This document shows, piece after piece, positions 51,718 through 59,168 of a stretch of DNA of 64,000 bases (position 1 is the stretch's first letter; every line of letters starts with the position of its first letter). Location of the stretch: the NCBI GenBank assembly GCA_020725545.1, contig DYEV01000027.1:62001-126000 (forward strand), given 5' to 3'. The translations under genes and the position numbers were made by a program. This stretch comes from Desulfobacca sp. Lineage in GTDB: Bacteria; Desulfobacterota; Desulfobaccia; Desulfobaccales; Desulfobaccaceae. Below the pieces are notes generated by a model that saw only the letters and a program-made list of their open reading frames with translations, did not search any database and was not told the origin of the DNA.

Positions 51718-51763
51718 TTAAAAAAAGTATCGACCCTCCTCACGAAAAACGTAAGGAGGGTCT
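51718..51763 (-). terminator. Terminator of the ferritin/ubiquitin-like operon
   Basis: Arms GACCCTCCT-ACG and CGT-AGGAGGGTC, with one mismatch, enclose five A. On the minus strand the hairpin is followed by GATACTTTTTTT. It lies about 35 bases after the ferritin-like stop. Confidence 0.85.
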
Positions 51764-51797: not shown

Positions 51798-52307
51798 TCA
51801 GCCACCCCAGGGCATGTGGGCATACGTCTCCGTCAGGGCATCCCGGAACTGCCGGAAAAATTTTTCGTGGCTGGCTTCCCAATCCGCCAGCATGGCCAGC
51901 GCCAGTTTAGCTTCACCCTCGGTCTTCTGGGCCATATTGTGATAAAACTCGCTCAGGTCCTTTTCAATGAGCCAGGCCAGATTGAACACGGTGACATCTG
52001 GCACCATGGACTCTGCTGTACAGCGCTCCAGAAATTCCGACCGGGCCCGGGAATCGAAATAGTCTACCGGTTTCAGGACCACCTCTTCCACGTCGGCCAA
52101 ACCGATCTTTTTGCCGGCTTTGATGTGACCGATGAGGCGCTGCAGGAATTCGATGTGTTTCTGCTCTTCCTGAATAAGGCGTTGGAAAGCTGACACGGCC
52201 GAACCGATGTTCAGGCGCGTCAGCGAATCCTGAAAGAATTTTTTACCGGTCTCCTCCTGGTTCAGGGCGTATTCAAAAATCCGGAGCAAGCCTTCTTGTC
52301 CACTCAT
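51798..52307 (-). CDS. Ferritin-like/rubrerythrin-family protein
   Basis: This 169-residue four-helix protein is likely to bind a di-iron centre. Ligand patterns are FEYALNQEETGKKFF, LIQEEQKHIEFL (E-E-x-x-H), EKDLSEFYHNMA and WEASHEKFF. No rubredoxin domain is present. It probably scavenges peroxide or stores iron. It ends Met-Pro-Trp-Gly-Gly, an unusual C-terminus given the ubiquitin-like genes just upstream. GGGAGGAAGGAAA precedes the ATG, 18 bases after the transporter stop. Confidence 0.82.
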   Translation of the reverse strand: MSGQEGLLRIFEYALNQEETGKKFFQDSLTRLNIGSAVSAFQRLIQEEQKHIEFLQRLIGHIKAGKKIGLADVEEVVLKPVDYFDSRARSEFLERCTAESMVPDVTVFNLAWLIEKDLSEFYHNMAQKTEGEAKLALAMLADWEASHEKFFRQFRDALTETYAHMPWGG

Positions 52308-52325
52308 TTTCCTTCCTCCCGATGG

Positions 52326-53258
52326 TTAAAATTTGGCAAGTTTGGCCTGCCGTTTCCAGACCCATTGCCATTTGAGATTGAGCCAAATAATATAGACGAT
52401 CATAAAGACCGTGGACACCGCGGCCGGCACTGATGTCTGCGGGCTGAACAGGGTGAGGGCCAAACCGCCGGCCAGACCATAGTTTTTTAAAGTGCCCAAA
52501 AGCACCAGGCTGGTCAGCCGCGGCTGACTGACACCCTGCCAACGGCAGAACCATTCGATGATCTCGCCCCAGAGAAAAGTTGTGGCCAGGGCAATGACCA
52601 TCACCGGCAGCAACTCCAGGGGCTGCTGGAGAAAAAGGTGGCGGTTCAGACCGACGATGGTATAGGTAATAAGAAAAAACGACCAATTCGTGACGGTGCC
52701 TTTATAGGGCTCCAGGGACCGGTCCCAGCCCCAACGTTGCAGCAGCGCGGCCAGCAGCAGCGGCAGCAGGATCAATTCGGCCACGATGACCGCGATCCTA
52801 TATGGATGAACCACCACCTCGCCGGCCAGGAACAGCCAGGCGCATACCGGCGTGAGGATAAGGGCGCTCAGATAGGAGCCCACCGTTCCCACCAGGGAAA
52901 AGATCCGGTCGCCGCCCAGGAGGTGGGTGAAAGGAATAACCGCCACGGCCGGTGGCACCACCGCCAGGAGGACAAAGCCGTTGCTGATTTCCGGCTGGTG
53001 AATCAACAGCCGGCTGAGCCCCAGTTGCAGGCCGCCCAAAAGGAGGAAATTGGCAAAGAGAGCCAGGAGGGTCGGGGCCACCAGATCTTTGGGCGAGCGC
53101 AAGATATCCATGGGTACGCCCAGGACTGAGAGGGTCATGACCAACCCCAGGGCCGGCAGGACCAGTGGTTCGCAGTAAGCTGCCCCCTGCCCTACCCCCA
53201 GTCCCGCAAGCAGCGCTAGGATCAGGATAACATCGCGATTGCGCAGTAGTCTGAGCAT
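52326..53258 (-). CDS. BASS-family (bile acid:Na+ symporter-like) membrane transporter
   Basis: This 310-residue membrane protein has about ten helices. It resembles the bile-acid/arsenical/auxin-type symporter fold, with paired inverted repeats and motifs such as AVVPPAVAVIPFTHLLGG and LGTLKNYGLAGGLALTLF, the second of which is the crossing-helix region. The substrate is unknown. The start at 53258 follows the E1 gene stop by one base (TGATATG), so it is coupled to that operon. The frame is open 13 codons more. Confidence 0.75.
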   Translation of the reverse strand: MLRLLRNRDVILILALLAGLGVGQGAAYCEPLVLPALGLVMTLSVLGVPMDILRSPKDLVAPTLLALFANFLLLGGLQLGLSRLLIHQPEISNGFVLLAVVPPAVAVIPFTHLLGGDRIFSLVGTVGSYLSALILTPVCAWLFLAGEVVVHPYRIAVIVAELILLPLLLAALLQRWGWDRSLEPYKGTVTNWSFFLITYTIVGLNRHLFLQQPLELLPVMVIALATTFLWGEIIEWFCRWQGVSQPRLTSLVLLGTLKNYGLAGGLALTLFSPQTSVPAAVSTVFMIVYIIWLNLKWQWVWKRQAKLAKF

Positions 53259-53259
53259 A

Positions 53260-54513
53260 TCAGGCCTGGCCCAGCTTCTGGGGCGCCGTCGCCTCATACC
53301 ACAGGGGCGGCCAAGGCAGGCCGGCCAGAAGGTGGCGGGCCGCCTCCACCATAAAGCCGCCGATCACCTGATTGGTCATAATGACGGCGGGATTGGGCTG
53401 ATAAATACACGCGGCCCGGGGCTGGCGCCGATTTTCTTCCTCCCTGGTCTTCTGCACCTCGTACATCTTGAGCAGCGCCGCCGGGGTCTGGGGTTGCAGC
53501 AACGGATGGCAGGCCACTACTTGGCCCCGGGAGACGTCGGCACCGCCGCTGAGCAGCGGCTTATGATAAGCGGCACAAGCCTCGCTGATGGCAATCCGGC
53601 TGGCAAAATTGTCCACGCAATCAAAAATCAGGTCAAAATGTCTGACATCCTGCTCCTGAAAGTAGTCTGCCACATACTGCGCCCGAGTGCCGAAATCCTG
53701 ATGCAGCCGCGCCGCCAAGGTTTGGGCCTTGCCGGCGCCCACGGCGCCGCCGAAAAATATCTGCCGGTTTAAGTTGGTCACTTCAATCACATCCGGATCA
53801 ATAAAGGTCAGATGCCGGAAGCCGGCCAAGGCCAACCCCAGGCCCACAAAATTGCCCAGAGCGCCGGCGCCCACAATACCGATGGTTGGCTGTTGCTCAG
53901 GTTCGGGCCACCGGGGGCCCGTATAAGCGCTGACCTCAGGGGAGCTCTGACCGGTCATGAGGATTACTTTGATTTCTTCTAACATAATACCGGCGGCGAT
54001 GATGTCCAGGACCCCATCCAAATTTGGCACGGTCCACCCGGGTAGTTGTGCGGCCGGCAAGACCTCCTGTAGGTCCAGCCATTCCCGGCCCCGCTGATAT
54101 GTCCAAACAGCCAATCCCTGGGTCTGGGCCTCCTGCCAACGATGGCCCCGGACCACGGTCAGGCGGTGTTGAAAGGCCTGTTCCAGCAGGATTTTGCTGG
54201 CCAGACCGAAGTGGCTCAGGTCCACCAGGGGGTGACAGTGCCGCAAGGCTTCCAGGCAGAGGGGATGGGTGAGGTAACCGGTCAGGTGCTGAAGACGAAA
54301 GTCGGGGTTCAAGGCGCGGGCCAAACCAATGAGGCGCTCGTCCAGCCAGGGGGCGATCACCCTGACCTCGTTGAGCCCCAAGGCTGCCGCACCCAATAAA
54401 AAAACCGAGGTCAGCTGGGCGTCGTCAGCGACCACGCCGAGCCGGGCGCGACTCAGCATTTCTTGACGCCACTCCGGGATGCGCAGTTGTCGATCCAGAC
54501 GGGGGCTGGCCAC
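53260..54513 (-). CDS. E1-like/ThiF-family ubiquitin-activating-type enzyme
   Basis: This 417-residue protein has a complete ThiF/E1 adenylation domain in its C-terminal half. The nucleotide motif is GIVGAGALGNFVG (213-224), with FIDPDVIEVTNLNRQIFF (Arg250), GKAQTLA (Lys262) and FDCVDNFASR (Asp301). Cys369 in RAACIYQPNPAV is a candidate thioester cysteine. The N-terminal half (about residues 15-200) reads like a degenerate copy of the same Rossmann fold (LTSVFLLGAAALGLNEVRVI), giving a two-lobe arrangement as in eukaryotic E1. GTG start with AGAAGGA upstream. Confidence 0.85.
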   Translation of the reverse strand: MASPRLDRQLRIPEWRQEMLSRARLGVVADDAQLTSVFLLGAAALGLNEVRVIAPWLDERLIGLARALNPDFRLQHLTGYLTHPLCLEALRHCHPLVDLSHFGLASKILLEQAFQHRLTVVRGHRWQEAQTQGLAVWTYQRGREWLDLQEVLPAAQLPGWTVPNLDGVLDIIAAGIMLEEIKVILMTGQSSPEVSAYTGPRWPEPEQQPTIGIVGAGALGNFVGLGLALAGFRHLTFIDPDVIEVTNLNRQIFFGGAVGAGKAQTLAARLHQDFGTRAQYVADYFQEQDVRHFDLIFDCVDNFASRIAISEACAAYHKPLLSGGADVSRGQVVACHPLLQPQTPAALLKMYEVQKTREEENRRQPRAACIYQPNPAVIMTNQVIGGFMVEAARHLLAGLPWPPLWYEATAPQKLGQA

Positions 54514-54518
54514 GAGGT

Positions 54519-55316
54519 TTACAGTCCTTCTAATTTGGCCGGGATATAAGGCACCGGCGACAACCGGGTCCGCACCGCTTCCTCCAACTCCTCCCGGTCG
54601 GAGGGGGTCAGCTGCCGGCCATCGGGGACCAATCTCATGTTGGCAGACTGGTGGCTGACAAAGGTCCGGCCCGACAGGATACCCCGCTTTTTATAATGGA
54701 TTTCCTGATCGTGCCAGCCATCGTCACCGATGACAATGGCAAAGCAGAAGCCGCCGTATTCAGTCTCCCAGAGCCGGGCGGTGCGCACCGGCACGTCGGT
54801 GATCAGGGTGACGCTCCCGGGGCGCAGGTCCGCTTCGGTCCAACGGCCCTCCTCCAGGCAGACAAGATCCTGGATAGCCACCTCCACCTTGGCCACCGGC
54901 AGCCAGAGTTGGGCCGTGACATAATCCAATACCGTGGCCTGATTGGCCGCGTCGACCCTAGAGAAGTGCTGCAGGGCCAAGTCGCCGTGGGAGTGAATCC
55001 ACCCGTTGATCAACATGGCCTTGGGCAAGGCCTCCCGGAAAGCGGCAATCTGGTCCGGGGCCAGACTGACGTACTGATCCTGATTCTTTTCGTTGACCGG
55101 CAGGCCGATGTCCACGATGACCTCCGGCTGCCGCCGCCAGGCCAGGGTAAAGCCATACCACTCGTAACTCTGGCCATGGATGGCGCGCACCAACTTATTG
55201 ATAGTATAAGCCTTTTCCCGGGCGAAAGGCGTGATCCGAATCTCGTGAGGCAGATCGGCCAGAGGGATCTCCCGCTGGGCAGGCTTTTTCAGGTCGGCCA
55301 GACGTTTGAGCCTCAC
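54519..55316 (-). CDS. JAMM/MPN+ metalloprotease-like deconjugase
   Basis: This 265-residue protein has an MPN+ site: Glu52 (SYEWYGF), then His108-x-His110 and Asp122 in GWIHSHGDLALQHFSRVD. The spacing is HSHG plus seven residues, then S-x-x-D, which is one residue longer than in Rpn11/CSN5. Such enzymes cut isopeptide bonds or the C-terminal tail of ubiquitin-like proteins. The ATG overlaps the AAA+ gene stop in ATGA, and the E1 gene follows after five bases. Confidence 0.88.
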   Translation of the reverse strand: MRLKRLADLKKPAQREIPLADLPHEIRITPFAREKAYTINKLVRAIHGQSYEWYGFTLAWRRQPEVIVDIGLPVNEKNQDQYVSLAPDQIAAFREALPKAMLINGWIHSHGDLALQHFSRVDAANQATVLDYVTAQLWLPVAKVEVAIQDLVCLEEGRWTEADLRPGSVTLITDVPVRTARLWETEYGGFCFAIVIGDDGWHDQEIHYKKRGILSGRTFVSHQSANMRLVPDGRQLTPSDREELEEAVRTRLSPVPYIPAKLEGL

Positions 55317-56416
55317 AGCAGTCTCCGGCGCACATAGTTTTCATCCACCTGCAGCGGACCGGTGTAGGTGCCGGGCAGCCGGAACATATCCTCCCCCAGG
55401 ACGCGATGCAGGATGCTGATCAGCCCCCGGGCGCCGGTCCGTTCCTGTTGAGCCCGCCGGGCCACAGCCTTCAAGGCTTCGGGGGTAAACTCCAGATCAA
55501 TCCCCCAGGTCTTGAAATCATGGGCATAAGCCTTCAGGGGACTATCCTCGCTTTTGGTCAGGACATCCACCAGATCATCGGTGGTCAGCAAATCATAGGT
55601 TACCCGCACCGGAAACCGGCCCATGAGCTGACGCTCCATGCCGAAGACCACCAGGTCCTCGGTCAGCAGATGGTCCCGCCAGTCCCCCTGGAAGCCATGC
55701 CGATCCAAGCGGTTTTGGACAATCGTGTCCAACTTGTCGAAAACGCCGCCGGCAATAAAGAGGACGTGTTTGGTGGACAGGGAGAAACGCTCCTTGCCCA
55801 CCTCCACAGTATTTTCCACGCCCTCCACCAGCTTCAGCAGCCCCTTTTGGACCCCCCGGCCGGAGACATCCCGCTGCGTCACTGTTTCGGTGGCCACTTT
55901 ATCCACCTCATCCAGATAGACAATGCCCATCTGGGCCACCTGGGGGTTGCCGTCGGCCGCCGTCAGCAGGTCCAACAGGATGTCGGCGGTATTGCGGCCC
56001 ACGTAGCCCGTTTCGCTGAATTTGGTCAAATCCTCCACCACAAAGGGCACGCCCACCAGGTGTGAGGCGGTTTCCGCAGTATAGGTCTTGCCGCAGCCGG
56101 TGGGGCCGATGAGGAGGATGTTGGCCTTGGGGGTCCGGGTCTGGCTTAAGGCCTGATCAATGTCTTTGCCATTGTTGGCCAGGGATTCCTTCAGGGCATG
56201 GCCCAACCGGCGGTAATGAAAGGCAATGGCCGTAGCCATGATCTTTTTGCCCTTTTCCTGGCCAATGATGAACCGATCTAGGTCCTGCTTCAATGCCACC
56301 GGCGTTTTGGCAAACTCAATGATGTGGGCCACCGCAACTTCGACCTTCTGCTGCCGTTGATAATCGAGCTTTTCTTGGATACGCCGGCGAGTCTGGTCAG
56401 AGACGAAATCATACAT
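55313..56416 (-). CDS. ClpX-like AAA+ unfoldase without zinc domain
   Basis: This 367-residue AAA+ ATPase is of the ClpX/HslU clade. Walker A is GPTGCGKT (104-111) and Walker B IVYLDE (165-170). It has the ClpX pore loop GYVG (137-140) within TKFSETGYVGRNTADILLDLL. The ClpX N-terminal cysteine zinc domain is absent. The segment that in ClpX carries the IGF loop (ClpP docking) reads HGF in DRHGFQGDW, so ClpP partnership is uncertain. An AAGGGA ribosome site is present. Likely role: ATP-driven unfolding of tagged proteins. Confidence 0.88.
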   Translation of the reverse strand: MYDFVSDQTRRRIQEKLDYQRQQKVEVAVAHIIEFAKTPVALKQDLDRFIIGQEKGKKIMATAIAFHYRRLGHALKESLANNGKDIDQALSQTRTPKANILLIGPTGCGKTYTAETASHLVGVPFVVEDLTKFSETGYVGRNTADILLDLLTAADGNPQVAQMGIVYLDEVDKVATETVTQRDVSGRGVQKGLLKLVEGVENTVEVGKERFSLSTKHVLFIAGGVFDKLDTIVQNRLDRHGFQGDWRDHLLTEDLVVFGMERQLMGRFPVRVTYDLLTTDDLVDVLTKSEDSPLKAYAHDFKTWGIDLEFTPEALKAVARRAQQERTGARGLISILHRVLGEDMFRLPGTYTGPLQVDENYVRRRLL

Positions 56417-56495
56417 AGACGTTCCCTTATAAGGGGGGGTGAATGTTAGTCAGAGTTTCCAGTTTCTATTTTTAGCCATTTTTGGGCCGTCAGGT

Positions 56496-56891
56496 TTATG
56501 GCTCTGGTTGACAGGCTGTATTCTGCCGCCAGATTTCAGCCAAAGGCGTGGTTGCCAGGATCCCGGGGTCCAAGTCGGGATGAGCAAGGAATAACCGCTG
56601 GCTCAGGATTATATCAGCCGGAGTGCGGGCGTAGCCGAGATAGGGATTGTTGTATTGGCGGATGATTTCCTGAGCCAGGTGATACTGTCCGGCACTGAGC
56701 AATGGGAAGAGGCTGAGGCGCTCCCTGGCTGGGGGCGCGCTGCTCGGCACCGTGTCATTGTCGAGTTGAGCCAGACTCCTCAGGCCATAGTCCCTGACAA
56801 TGGCCGCGACTGCGGCAAAGGCCGTCTGCGGCCACAGCTCCTTGGCGAGCCGGCGTCCCCGCCCCTCTTTAATGCTCTCTAATAAAGACAT
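56496..56891 (-). CDS. Hypothetical helical protein of the ubiquitin-like locus
   Basis: This 131-residue protein was not recognised. It begins MSLLESIKEGRGRRLAKELW, has hydrophobic helices and a Tyr-rich centre (QYHLAQEIIRQYNNPYLGYA), and lacks cysteines apart from one near the end. It lies 79 bases before the AAA+ gene and 206 after the E2-like gene on the same strand. A role as adaptor or target-recognition factor is possible but unsupported by motif. Confidence 0.6.
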   Translation of the reverse strand: MSLLESIKEGRGRRLAKELWPQTAFAAVAAIVRDYGLRSLAQLDNDTVPSSAPPARERLSLFPLLSAGQYHLAQEIIRQYNNPYLGYARTPADIILSQRLFLAHPDLDPGILATTPLAEIWRQNTACQPEP

Positions 56892-57097
56892 GCTGGTTTG
56901 CCTTGCCAGTGATCTGCTGCCATTGTCATCGCGGTTCAGTAGTGTCCAATAAGGTTTTTGCAGGCAGCCCCCGGCGGGCGCCGCAGGTATCGCAAGTTGG
57001 CCCCTTCTGCCGCTCAGTTTAGGTAGGAAAAGATTTTTCCCTCTGTGGGAAGGTTATAACTCCCTGCCAGGATTCTGCCGGATACGCATGATCGCAG

Positions 57098-58300
57098 TTA
57101 CCTATTTTTCACTTCCAGCTCTCCGGCCAAGATTCTGGGATCATCCTCCGGCAGTCGCCAATCCTCGAAATCAACCTCCGAGTGATGCCGGCCAAAACCA
57201 TCCAGGCTGTTATAGCCGTTGCGCTTGCGGCTGTTATAGCCGTAATACAGGGCGTTGAGGCCCTCCTGCAGGGCTTGGATAATCGCCCTGGCAGAAAATT
57301 CCTGGGGGGCCTGATAATCTGTTAAACAGATGGGCTGTCGGGGCGCGCACCGCCGCAGGAGGGGATGCTTGTAGGTATCTAAAACCACCGGCTGAAACGG
57401 CCCCGCGGAGCAGACCGCCACCCGACAGTCGGGGAACAGATAGGGGCGGCCGTAATAATCCTGCAGGACATATTCCCCGGTCTTCTTATAAACCCAATAC
57501 ACTCCCGGACGTTTGGCGTCTCCACAGAAGCCCACGTCGTCAACTTCCAAGGCCCCCCGGGCCGCAATGGTGAGCAGGATGGCTAACTGCTCCTTGGGCA
57601 GGTCTGCCAAAGCTTGCCGGGCCGCGAGTTCCTCCTGGACCTGGGCCATCTCCTGGGCGATAATCCGAGCTTGCAGCACGGTACGCAGCCACCGCCGCAC
57701 GGCCGGGCCATTCCCGGCGGGAGCCGGCACGTCGGGGTTGGCGGCCTGACGGGCTGTTAGCCATTGCAGCACCTCCCGGAGTGTTGCCGCCTGTTCCTGG
57801 AAAGCGGCCAGCAAATCGGCGGCCTGATCTGGTATGGTGTGCGACTCTGCCACATAGGCCAAAAACGCCCCGGCCTCCGTCTTGGCGCGGTGCTTTCCCC
57901 GACGGGTGCGTAGAAAATATGGCAAAACGACGAAGAGAATGGTCTCCAGCTCAGGAGCCAACACAGGCGTGCAGGTGCGCAACCGCGATAGAACTTCCTG
58001 CAGGAGGGCCAACCGCAGCTTCTCATACTCTTCTGGAAAAACGGTCTGATAGTGCTCCGCCAGGGCTGCCAGGGACAGAGACTGAACAAAGTAGCGGCCA
58101 TCTTGCCGCAGCAGGAGGGCTGCCGCATCCGGACGCCGGTTTGCCGCCTCGAGGGAGCAGGCCCCACCATCTCCCGCGGCCCTGCCCTCCCCTCCCCTTG
58201 CCGCCAGCTCCGCGGCGATCTCGGCATCAAACAGCAACGGCAGATAAAGAAAGCCGTCCTGCACGAGGATTTCAGTCTGACCGCTGAGCAGTTGCCACAT
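57098..58300 (-). CDS. Putative E2-like ubiquitin-conjugating protein
   Basis: This 400-residue protein was not recognised as a whole. In the C-terminal third, GPFQPVVLDTYKHPL (from Gly300) and PICLTDYQ (Ile324-Cys325-Leu326) mirror the E2 core. In eukaryotic E2s PFKPPKVxF is followed by YHPN and SICLDIL. A helix (ARAIIQALQEGLNALYYGYN) follows, as after the E2 cysteine. His312-Pro313 to Cys325 is 13 residues, against about ten in UbcH5. The N-terminal two thirds (about 1-250) is helical. It would accept the modifier from the E1. The Asn of HPN is Leu, as reported for prokaryotic E2 families. Confidence 0.5.
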   Translation of the reverse strand: MWQLLSGQTEILVQDGFLYLPLLFDAEIAAELAARGGEGRAAGDGGACSLEAANRRPDAAALLLRQDGRYFVQSLSLAALAEHYQTVFPEEYEKLRLALLQEVLSRLRTCTPVLAPELETILFVVLPYFLRTRRGKHRAKTEAGAFLAYVAESHTIPDQAADLLAAFQEQAATLREVLQWLTARQAANPDVPAPAGNGPAVRRWLRTVLQARIIAQEMAQVQEELAARQALADLPKEQLAILLTIAARGALEVDDVGFCGDAKRPGVYWVYKKTGEYVLQDYYGRPYLFPDCRVAVCSAGPFQPVVLDTYKHPLLRRCAPRQPICLTDYQAPQEFSARAIIQALQEGLNALYYGYNSRKRNGYNSLDGFGRHHSEVDFEDWRLPEDDPRILAGELEVKNR

Positions 58301-58464
58301 GGAGATACGCTTTGCCAGTTTTAAAAGTGCCGTTGGGCGCCCAGCCGCCGGTTTGGGCGGACCTTGTCGGTTGGCCCCATGAAAAGACCACCATCTCTCC
58401 TCCGTAGCCCAAGCTCTTTCCGCTGACGCGACTTATTTTCTGACCACTGATCCCGGACCACTGA

Positions 58465-58824
58465 TCAGCCCCCCTCCTGGGGTTTGATGGCCCGCACCGG
58501 GACATACAAATAACTTTCGCCTTCCTCCGACAGCTCCAGCCGGGCATATGCCAGCGCCGGGCTCTGGGTATCCCGCCCCCGGGCCAAAAGGGTGCCGCCC
58601 TGCAACTGCCGCTGGATATCTTCCAGGATCTGCCGTTCTTCAATGCTCCAATCCCGCCGGGCCAGCATTTCCTGGCAGAGGTCGGCCAAGGTTTGGTCTT
58701 CGTAGGTGCCTGGTTCGAAGATGGCCAGCAACCCTTCCCCAGCCTGGCCGGGCAAAATTTCGACGACCAACGGTAATGGCTGCTCTCGACGTTGTTCCTC
58801 GGAACTTAGGACCACTTCAGTCAT
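58465..58824 (-). CDS. Candidate ubiquitin-like modifier ending in Gly-Gly
   Basis: This 119-residue protein ends ESYLYVPVRAIKPQEGG, with the diglycine exactly at the C-terminus. The middle can be read as a beta-grasp: strand LPLVVEIL, strand LLAIFEPGT, helix TLADLCQEMLARR, helix IEERQILEDIQRQLQ and a last strand YLYVPVRAI before a flexible tail. No Pro/Glu-rich transport signal is seen. The ATG at 58824 has AAAGGAGG upstream and overlaps the AbrB-like gene by eight bases. Function is inferred from its C-terminus and its E1, E2-like and JAMM neighbours. No homologous fold was computed. Confidence 0.5.
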   Translation of the reverse strand: MTEVVLSSEEQRREQPLPLVVEILPGQAGEGLLAIFEPGTYEDQTLADLCQEMLARRDWSIEERQILEDIQRQLQGGTLLARGRDTQSPALAYARLELSEEGESYLYVPVRAIKPQEGG

Positions 58825-59083
58825 GGCGCCCCCTCCTTTGCCCGGTCGTGGCCCCGGCCACGGGCAGACCATGCAGCCCGCCAGCCCGCAGCACCGGCAG
58901 CACCGGTTCCTGGCCACCCTGGCCCATGGTTTTGTCTTTATCCACCAGCATCTTGGCCTTCAGAACCAGACACGACTGCTCCAGTTCAATCTCCAGGATA
59001 TCCCCTTCCTTAATGTCCAGTACCTCCCGTAAATTCTTGGGCAAGGTGATCTGGCCATGGCGCAACACTTTCACCACTGTCAT
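58817..59083 (-). CDS. AbrB/MazE-like DNA-binding regulator
   Basis: This 88-residue protein has an N-terminal SpoVT-AbrB swapped-hairpin domain (VVKVLRHGQITLPKNLREVL then DIKEGDILEIEL), as in antitoxins and transition-state regulators. The C-terminal 40 residues are Gly/Pro/Arg-rich and were not recognised. No toxin gene is adjacent, so it is more likely an autoregulator of the operon it heads. An AAGGAGCAGAGC ribosome site precedes the ATG. A promoter with a palindromic spacer lies 57-85 bases upstream. Confidence 0.82.
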   Translation of the reverse strand: MTVVKVLRHGQITLPKNLREVLDIKEGDILEIELEQSCLVLKAKMLVDKDKTMGQGGQEPVLPVLRAGGLHGLPVAGATTGQRRGRHD

Positions 59084-59139: not shown

Positions 59140-59168
59140 AGTATCGCGGGAGAACCCGCCACCGTCAA
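59140..59168 (-). promoter_or_regulatory. Sigma70 promoter of the ubiquitin-like operon with palindromic spacer
   Basis: On the minus strand TTGACG (59163-59168) and GATACT (59140-59145) are separated by exactly 17 bases. The spacer contains GCGGGTTCTCCCGC, a five-pair inverted repeat that could be an operator for the AbrB-like protein. Transcription would start near 59132. Confidence 0.65.

Follow-up and report, generated by a model that had tools for sequence, protein, structure and literature searches.

What would a sulfate-reducing bacterium do with a ubiquitin-type modification module that has an AAA+ unfoldase among its genes? The question is raised by a run of nine genes on a contig of Desulfobacca sp. 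(DYEV01000027.1, positions 62,001 to 126,000; this whole stretch of 64,000 nucleotides is called the window here). A first-pass annotation had read the run as a complete ubiquitin-type modification and unfolding operon. We found that the conserved system consists of the middle six genes only: a ubiquitin-like modifier (Ubl), an E2-like protein, a protein of 131 amino acids (X131), a ClpX-like AAA+ unfoldase, a JAMM metalloprotease and a two-lobed E1. These six probably make up a dedicated bacterial system of Ubl conjugation and deconjugation with an unfoldase of its own, one that would be coupled to the JAMM enzyme and not to a peptidase.

The core was delimited by comparison within the phylum of the window, Desulfobacterota. 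A profile scan of 395 of its genomes gave 20 with a two-lobed E1 matched over both lobes. Further relatives were added through a JAMM profile, and the locus set consisted of the E1 neighbourhoods and the relatives found in this way. All six core genes occurred together on one strand at 34 loci, all in Desulfobacterota, in the order Ubl-E2-X131-AAA-JAMM-E1 at 28 of them and with E1 first at 6 of the 34. This synteny is far above chance and extends across families; the first-pass annotation had proposed that the gene order be sought in other genomes. E1 and JAMM were both present in 19 and both absent in 31 of the 50 genomes scanned for both, with zero exceptions, these genomes being related and not 50 independent observations. 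E2 was also not found in four tested genomes without JAMM.

The core parts belong together even where they are unlinked; split sets keep every part. In G428, a genome in a single contig, the set is divided between 2.12 Mb (Ubl-AAA-JAMM) and 2.87 Mb (E2-X131-E1). The complete set is spread over three contigs in G139, and in three genomes of one genus E1 is unlinked from the other five core genes. A remnant of the E1 C-terminus was seen just upstream of Ubl in G428 (L190:7060-7296), suggesting that its split set was derived from an E1-first operon through duplication or relocation. In another genome, G422, only the end of E2 was detected and Ubl was not (L185:10863-11279 and upstream), which might reflect sequencing errors or real decay.

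The 119-residue Ubl was predicted to have the beta-grasp fold that had been expected of it. Its AlphaFold2 model showed the topology b-b-a-a-b-b-b (predicted local distance difference test, pLDDT, 85), in a single domain of about 100 residues with no tandem ubiquitin-like domains. The top Foldseek matches in the PDB were mostly beta-grasp folds (GABARAP, ubiquitin-like domains, Ufm1, the UBLs of USP7, Ras-binding domains of PI3K, and ferredoxins). The motif PQEGG was invariant in all 38 aligned Ubls and in 4 further genomes. Conservation ended exactly at this motif and was followed by unconserved tails of 0 to 151 amino acids; 5 of the 38, including the Ubl of the window, ended directly in GG. 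This pattern predicts that the Ubl is processed at its C-terminus, with JAMM as the obvious candidate enzyme. Three genomes of a sister genus (the second genus of family f1) have an acetyltransferase domain as the tail, fused in frame after PQEGG in L035:14302-15111 (Pfam GNAT, 7e-18) and L040:4818-5633 (9e-19); the third case, L172, was recognized by alignment, the Pfam scan having covered L035 and L040 only. The arrangement recalls ubiquitin fused to ribosomal proteins, and processing would free the GNAT domain as a separate protein.

The two lobes of the E1 were homologous to each other (hhalign E 1.1e-6) and the N-lobe was degenerate, so the protein is a single-chain pseudo-dimer as in UBA1. 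Yeast UBA1 also gave the best PDB matches to the E1 profile. C369 and the ATP-site residues G215, G217, D239, N247, R250, K262 and D301 were invariant (41/41), and C369 is the putative catalytic cysteine by its position. In JAMM, H108, H110, S119 and D122 were invariant in 44 of 44 sequences and E52 was kept in 43. Its match to the Prok-JAB model was weak for the window protein (0.017) and at best 2.5e-4 among 16 relatives. The only Prok-JAB match in the window's own genome was a different protein on another contig; the operon JAMM is too diverged for this model.

Ubl, the E2-like protein and X131 had no convincing match to a Pfam or NCBIfam family. In the E2-like protein, Y310, H312, P313, I324 and C325 were invariant (37/37). 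Of the motifs singled out by the first-pass annotation, the GG of the Ubl and the HP and IC of the E2-like protein proved to be conserved. Residues 236-353 of its model followed the element order of a UBC domain (helix-strands-Cys-helix). The best PDB fold match was UBE2O, an E2 (Foldseek E 0.15), and three further E2s were among the 50 best. The proposed UBC fold thus stood as to topology and best match and not as to a significant score: the fold is probable and the homology statistically unproven. Comparison of the E2 profile with PDB sequences gave chance-level matches only, to the Ras activator SOS, and a fold search in viral structures gave nothing useful. For X131, a Pfam scan gave no match; it travels with E2 and E1 in G428 and with Ubl, AAA+ and JAMM in G139, and is a candidate adaptor or E3-like factor. 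Taken with the synteny, the invariant GG and catalytic motifs support the claim of a complete ubiquitin-type module with a ClpX-type unfoldase.

These genes could also be read as a sulfur-carrier or cofactor pathway, in which the Ubl is a ThiS/MoaD-like carrier that JAMM processes, in the manner of CysO-Mec or PDTC clusters, and the 400-residue protein is something other than an E2. A ThiF-type E1 with JAMM and a GG protein fits sulfur-carrier operons as well (Iyer 2006, PMC1779556), and the E2 homology lacks formal proof. However, the two-lobed E1 was nearer to UBA1 in the PDB search, the core contains no rhodanese or cysteine synthase gene, HP...IC is invariant in the 400-residue protein, and an unfoldase has no role in such a pathway. 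We regard this explanation as very improbable.

The AAA+ protein was closest to ClpX; aligned over 350 residues with the ClpX that the genome encodes elsewhere, it was 36% identical. As in ClpX, the Walker A and B motifs, the GYVG pore loop, the arginine finger and sensor 2 are kept; K110, T111, D169, E170, GYVG, R267 and R330 were invariant in all 42 sequences. Unlike in ClpX, the zinc-binding domain (CxxC...CxxC) was not found in any of 16 aligned members, the segment of the RKH loop is missing, and the segment of the ClpP-docking (IGF) loop falls 13 residues short of its counterpart in the host ClpX and is not conserved, reading HGF, QGH, QNY, QSL, QGI, QKI or NHL across relatives. The stop codon of the AAA+ gene overlapped the start of the JAMM gene by 4 nucleotides in 36 of 41 loci (including the window) and by 1 nucleotide in 2 more, implying translational coupling of the two. 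The window's genome encodes another ClpX-like paralogue (G000:C2:101213-102268, L055; open frame of 667 amino acids), which is much extended at the C-terminus and contains an IGF-like motif.

The kinship with ClpX invites a different explanation, Ubl-directed proteolysis, in which tagged proteins would pass from the AAA+ into the host ClpP or HslV, a simplified ubiquitin-proteasome route. The window's genome encodes ClpX, ClpP, HslU and an HslV-type protein elsewhere, and H-G-F is kept near the position of the host ClpX MGF loop in the window and some relatives. Against this stand the shortened and variable docking segment and the make-up of the core, which has no peptidase gene and in which the coupled partner is JAMM. 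We consider proteolysis quite unlikely. The first-pass annotation had left open whether tagged proteins are unfolded or degraded. Unfolding or remodelling with removal of the tag was the better inference of the two; degradation was weakened, because ClpXP and HslUV-type genes are present elsewhere in the genome and the AAA+ lacks a conserved ClpP-docking loop.

From what was computed here (the gene set, its synteny and co-occurrence, the invariant catalytic residues, PQEGG with its tails, the predicted beta-grasp and the altered docking loop) we infer the following chemical steps, the partnership of AAA+ and JAMM, and the outcome. JAMM would trim the variable tail off the Ubl precursor and expose PQEGG. 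The pseudo-dimeric E1 would adenylate the C-terminal glycine of the Ubl and hold the Ubl on C369, from which the E2-like protein would take it over at C325 and pass it to target proteins, perhaps with X131 as an adaptor. JAMM would take off the tag as the ClpX-like ring draws the tagged protein through its GYVG pore. The output would probably be unfolding, disassembly or hand-over rather than destruction, as the operon encodes no peptidase and its AAA+ lacks a conserved ClpP-docking loop.

Several observations weigh against this reading. No Foldseek match of the Ubl had an E below 0.17, and none of the E2-like protein had one below 0.15, so that none was significant by itself. Alignment of the E2-like protein by hhalign to five UBC sequences placed His and Cys in register with P of about 0.02-0.035, and 4 of 200 decoys did as well. 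The 400-residue protein had no match to a Pfam E2 family. The JAMM motif has the spacing H-x-H-x8-S-x2-D, with one more residue than the x7 that is usual. The overlap of AAA+ and JAMM is missing in three genomes of one family (f71), and gene coupling is the sole ground on which the AAA+ may be thought to act on Ubl-tagged proteins.

Presence of the system was patchy between classes (17/29, 24/56, 2/26 and 5/192 genomes). The tree of AAA+ and JAMM largely tracked host families, with 9 label changes where the least possible was 7 and the shuffled mean was 26.9. Flanks of the core were common within genera or families and included housekeeping genes such as that of PRPP synthetase. Neither E2 nor JAMM had relatives on the plasmids or viral contigs searched, so a mobile or viral origin was rejected; viral AAA+ matches were at most 39% identical. 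The sole match in a wider contig search (L002, Anaerolineaceae) was generic E1 similarity with no partner genes and was also discarded. Because the tree follows families, flanks are shared and plasmid or viral relatives were not found, the system looks old, mostly vertical and often lost, and not like a mobile defence island.

These data bear on the possibility that the genes belong to the Bil, Bub or CBASS type of anti-phage or stress-immunity system, with an unfoldase added. The core chemistry of E1, E2, Ubl and JAMM is the same as in Bil (PMC11354881), and the patchy presence would suit such a role. The operon tree that follows host families, the flanks shared with housekeeping genes and the want of E2 or JAMM relatives on plasmids and viral contigs speak against it, as does the PADLOC result, which gave nothing beyond generic E1 and AAA similarity. 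Slow vertical inheritance is still compatible with defence. On balance we hold immunity to be unlikely.

The nine open reading frames of the run, all co-directional on the minus strand from 59083 to 51798, lay where the first-pass annotation had placed them. The unit is bracketed by a site resembling a promoter and by a strong hairpin resembling a terminator, both of them consensus matches only (Table 1). The inclusion of the AbrB-like, BASS and ferritin-like genes as operon members in the first-pass annotation did not hold. These three adjoin the core at two loci only, the window and L033 (same genus), and were rejected as parts of the system because they are absent at nearly all other loci; they are local neighbours of the core. 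The AbrB/MazE-type protein might be a local regulator. Its frame runs 8 nucleotides into the start of the Ubl gene (58817-58824), hinting at translational coupling in the window genome. In a single-contig genome of the same genus, a short BASS-like remnant 3′ of E1 (L034:9725-9868) suggests decay of the transporter gene there.

Table 1. Features of the nine-gene unit in the window, in order of transcription.
Feature	Position	Strand	Basis and remarks
Promoter-like site TTGACG-17-GATACT	59140..59168	-	Upstream of first gene; 9/12 consensus matches, consensus only
AbrB/MazE-type DNA-binding protein, 88 amino acids	58817..59083	-	Pfam/NCBIfam 2.3e-9; outside conserved core
Ubl modifier, 119 amino acids, C-terminus RAIKPQEGG	58465..58824	-	Predicted beta-grasp, conservation
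E2-like protein, 400 amino acids	57098..58300	-	Helical N-terminal half and C-terminal UBC-like domain (about residues 232-400); invariant H312-P313, C325
X131, 131 amino acids	56496..56891	-	Fast-evolving; invariant or nearly so at a few positions (F62, P83, Y84, L100, L112)
ClpX-like AAA+ unfoldase, 367 amino acids	55313..56416	-	AAA_2 9.5e-20; ClpX model 4.4e-83
JAMM metalloprotease, 265 amino acids	54519..55316	-	Invariant H108, H110, S119, D122; near-invariant E52
Two-lobed E1	53260..54513	-	ThiF 1.6e-31; degenerate N-lobe and active ThiF-type C-lobe; invariant C369
BASS-family transporter	52326..53297	-	SBF/BASS 1e-10; outside conserved core
Ferritin-like (rubrerythrin-type) protein	51798..52307	-	8.9e-9; outside conserved core
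Intrinsic-terminator-like hairpin, 13-bp stem and T tract	51732..51762	-	3′ of last gene; consensus match only

Among known systems, the Bil operon (BilABCD) encodes a Ubl, an E2, a JAMM deubiquitinase and an E1 with inactive and active adenylation domains, and its Ubl precursor is trimmed by the deubiquitinase to expose the C-terminal glycine (PMC11354881). The core described here shares this set, with the 400-residue protein as the probable E2, and its E1 likewise has a degenerate and an active lobe. It differs from Bil in its single-domain Ubl (two tandem ubiquitin-like domains in Bil), in the large helical N-terminal half of its 400-residue E2-like protein, in the addition of X131 and the ClpX-like unfoldase, and in being mostly vertical and chromosomal. 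A Cys domain of about 80 amino acids was also not seen in the E1 here; its alignment showed no insert of this length, and C369 sits on a short loop that precedes the C-terminal strands.

None of the operon types 6a-6e catalogued by Iyer et al. in 2006 was reported with an AAA+ (PMC1779556). The nearest is type 6d, in which separate genes encode a stand-alone Ubl, an E2-like protein, an E1, a JAMM and an additional helical protein. The 6d E2, however, carries its conserved His after the Cys and none upstream, whereas H312 upstream of C325 is invariant here. The N-terminal domain of the 6d JAMM has an invariant Arg and Trp, whereas the alignment here placed W53 and W106 inside the JAMM core and had neither an invariant Trp nor an invariant Arg on its N-terminal side. 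Bub (bacterial ubiquitination-like) operons are bacterial ubiquitin-like systems of the same general class (PMC13373217). In vWA-MoxR/FtsH ternary conflict systems, which have a Ubl-E2 fusion, an E1, a JAB and a RING E3, Ubl conjugation genes likewise adjoin AAA+ genes (PMC7159879); their MoxR/FtsH AAA+ and their RING and caspase-like effectors were not seen here. We found no published account of the six-gene set, in a comparison to which key catalogues later than 2006 and the primary papers on Bub and Bil did not belong. Its novelty is therefore provisional.

The 19S particle (the Rpt ring with Rpn11) and Cdc48/p97 join an AAA+ unfoldase to deubiquitinating activity on ubiquitin-tagged proteins. 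The pairing of an AAA+ unfoldase with JAMM-type removal of the tag resembles them as a functional analogy in which the coupling is inferred; in contrast to them, the AAA+ here is of the ClpX branch and has no proteolytic core. More tentatively than the existence of a dedicated system, and with rather less than even confidence, we suggest that it could be a protease-free counterpart of the proteasome regulatory particle or of Cdc48, in which a ClpX-derived ring gave up ClpP and took JAMM as its partner, mostly vertically inherited in Desulfobacterota and serving a cellular and not an antiviral function.

The combination of ubiquitin tagging with an unfolding motor and JAMM counts as a hallmark of eukaryotes and of some archaea. 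Only the proteolytic chamber is missing from the six-gene bacterial set described here, which has all the other elements. The system makes tagging and unfolding without degradation directly testable, and it offers a compact set for reconstitution.

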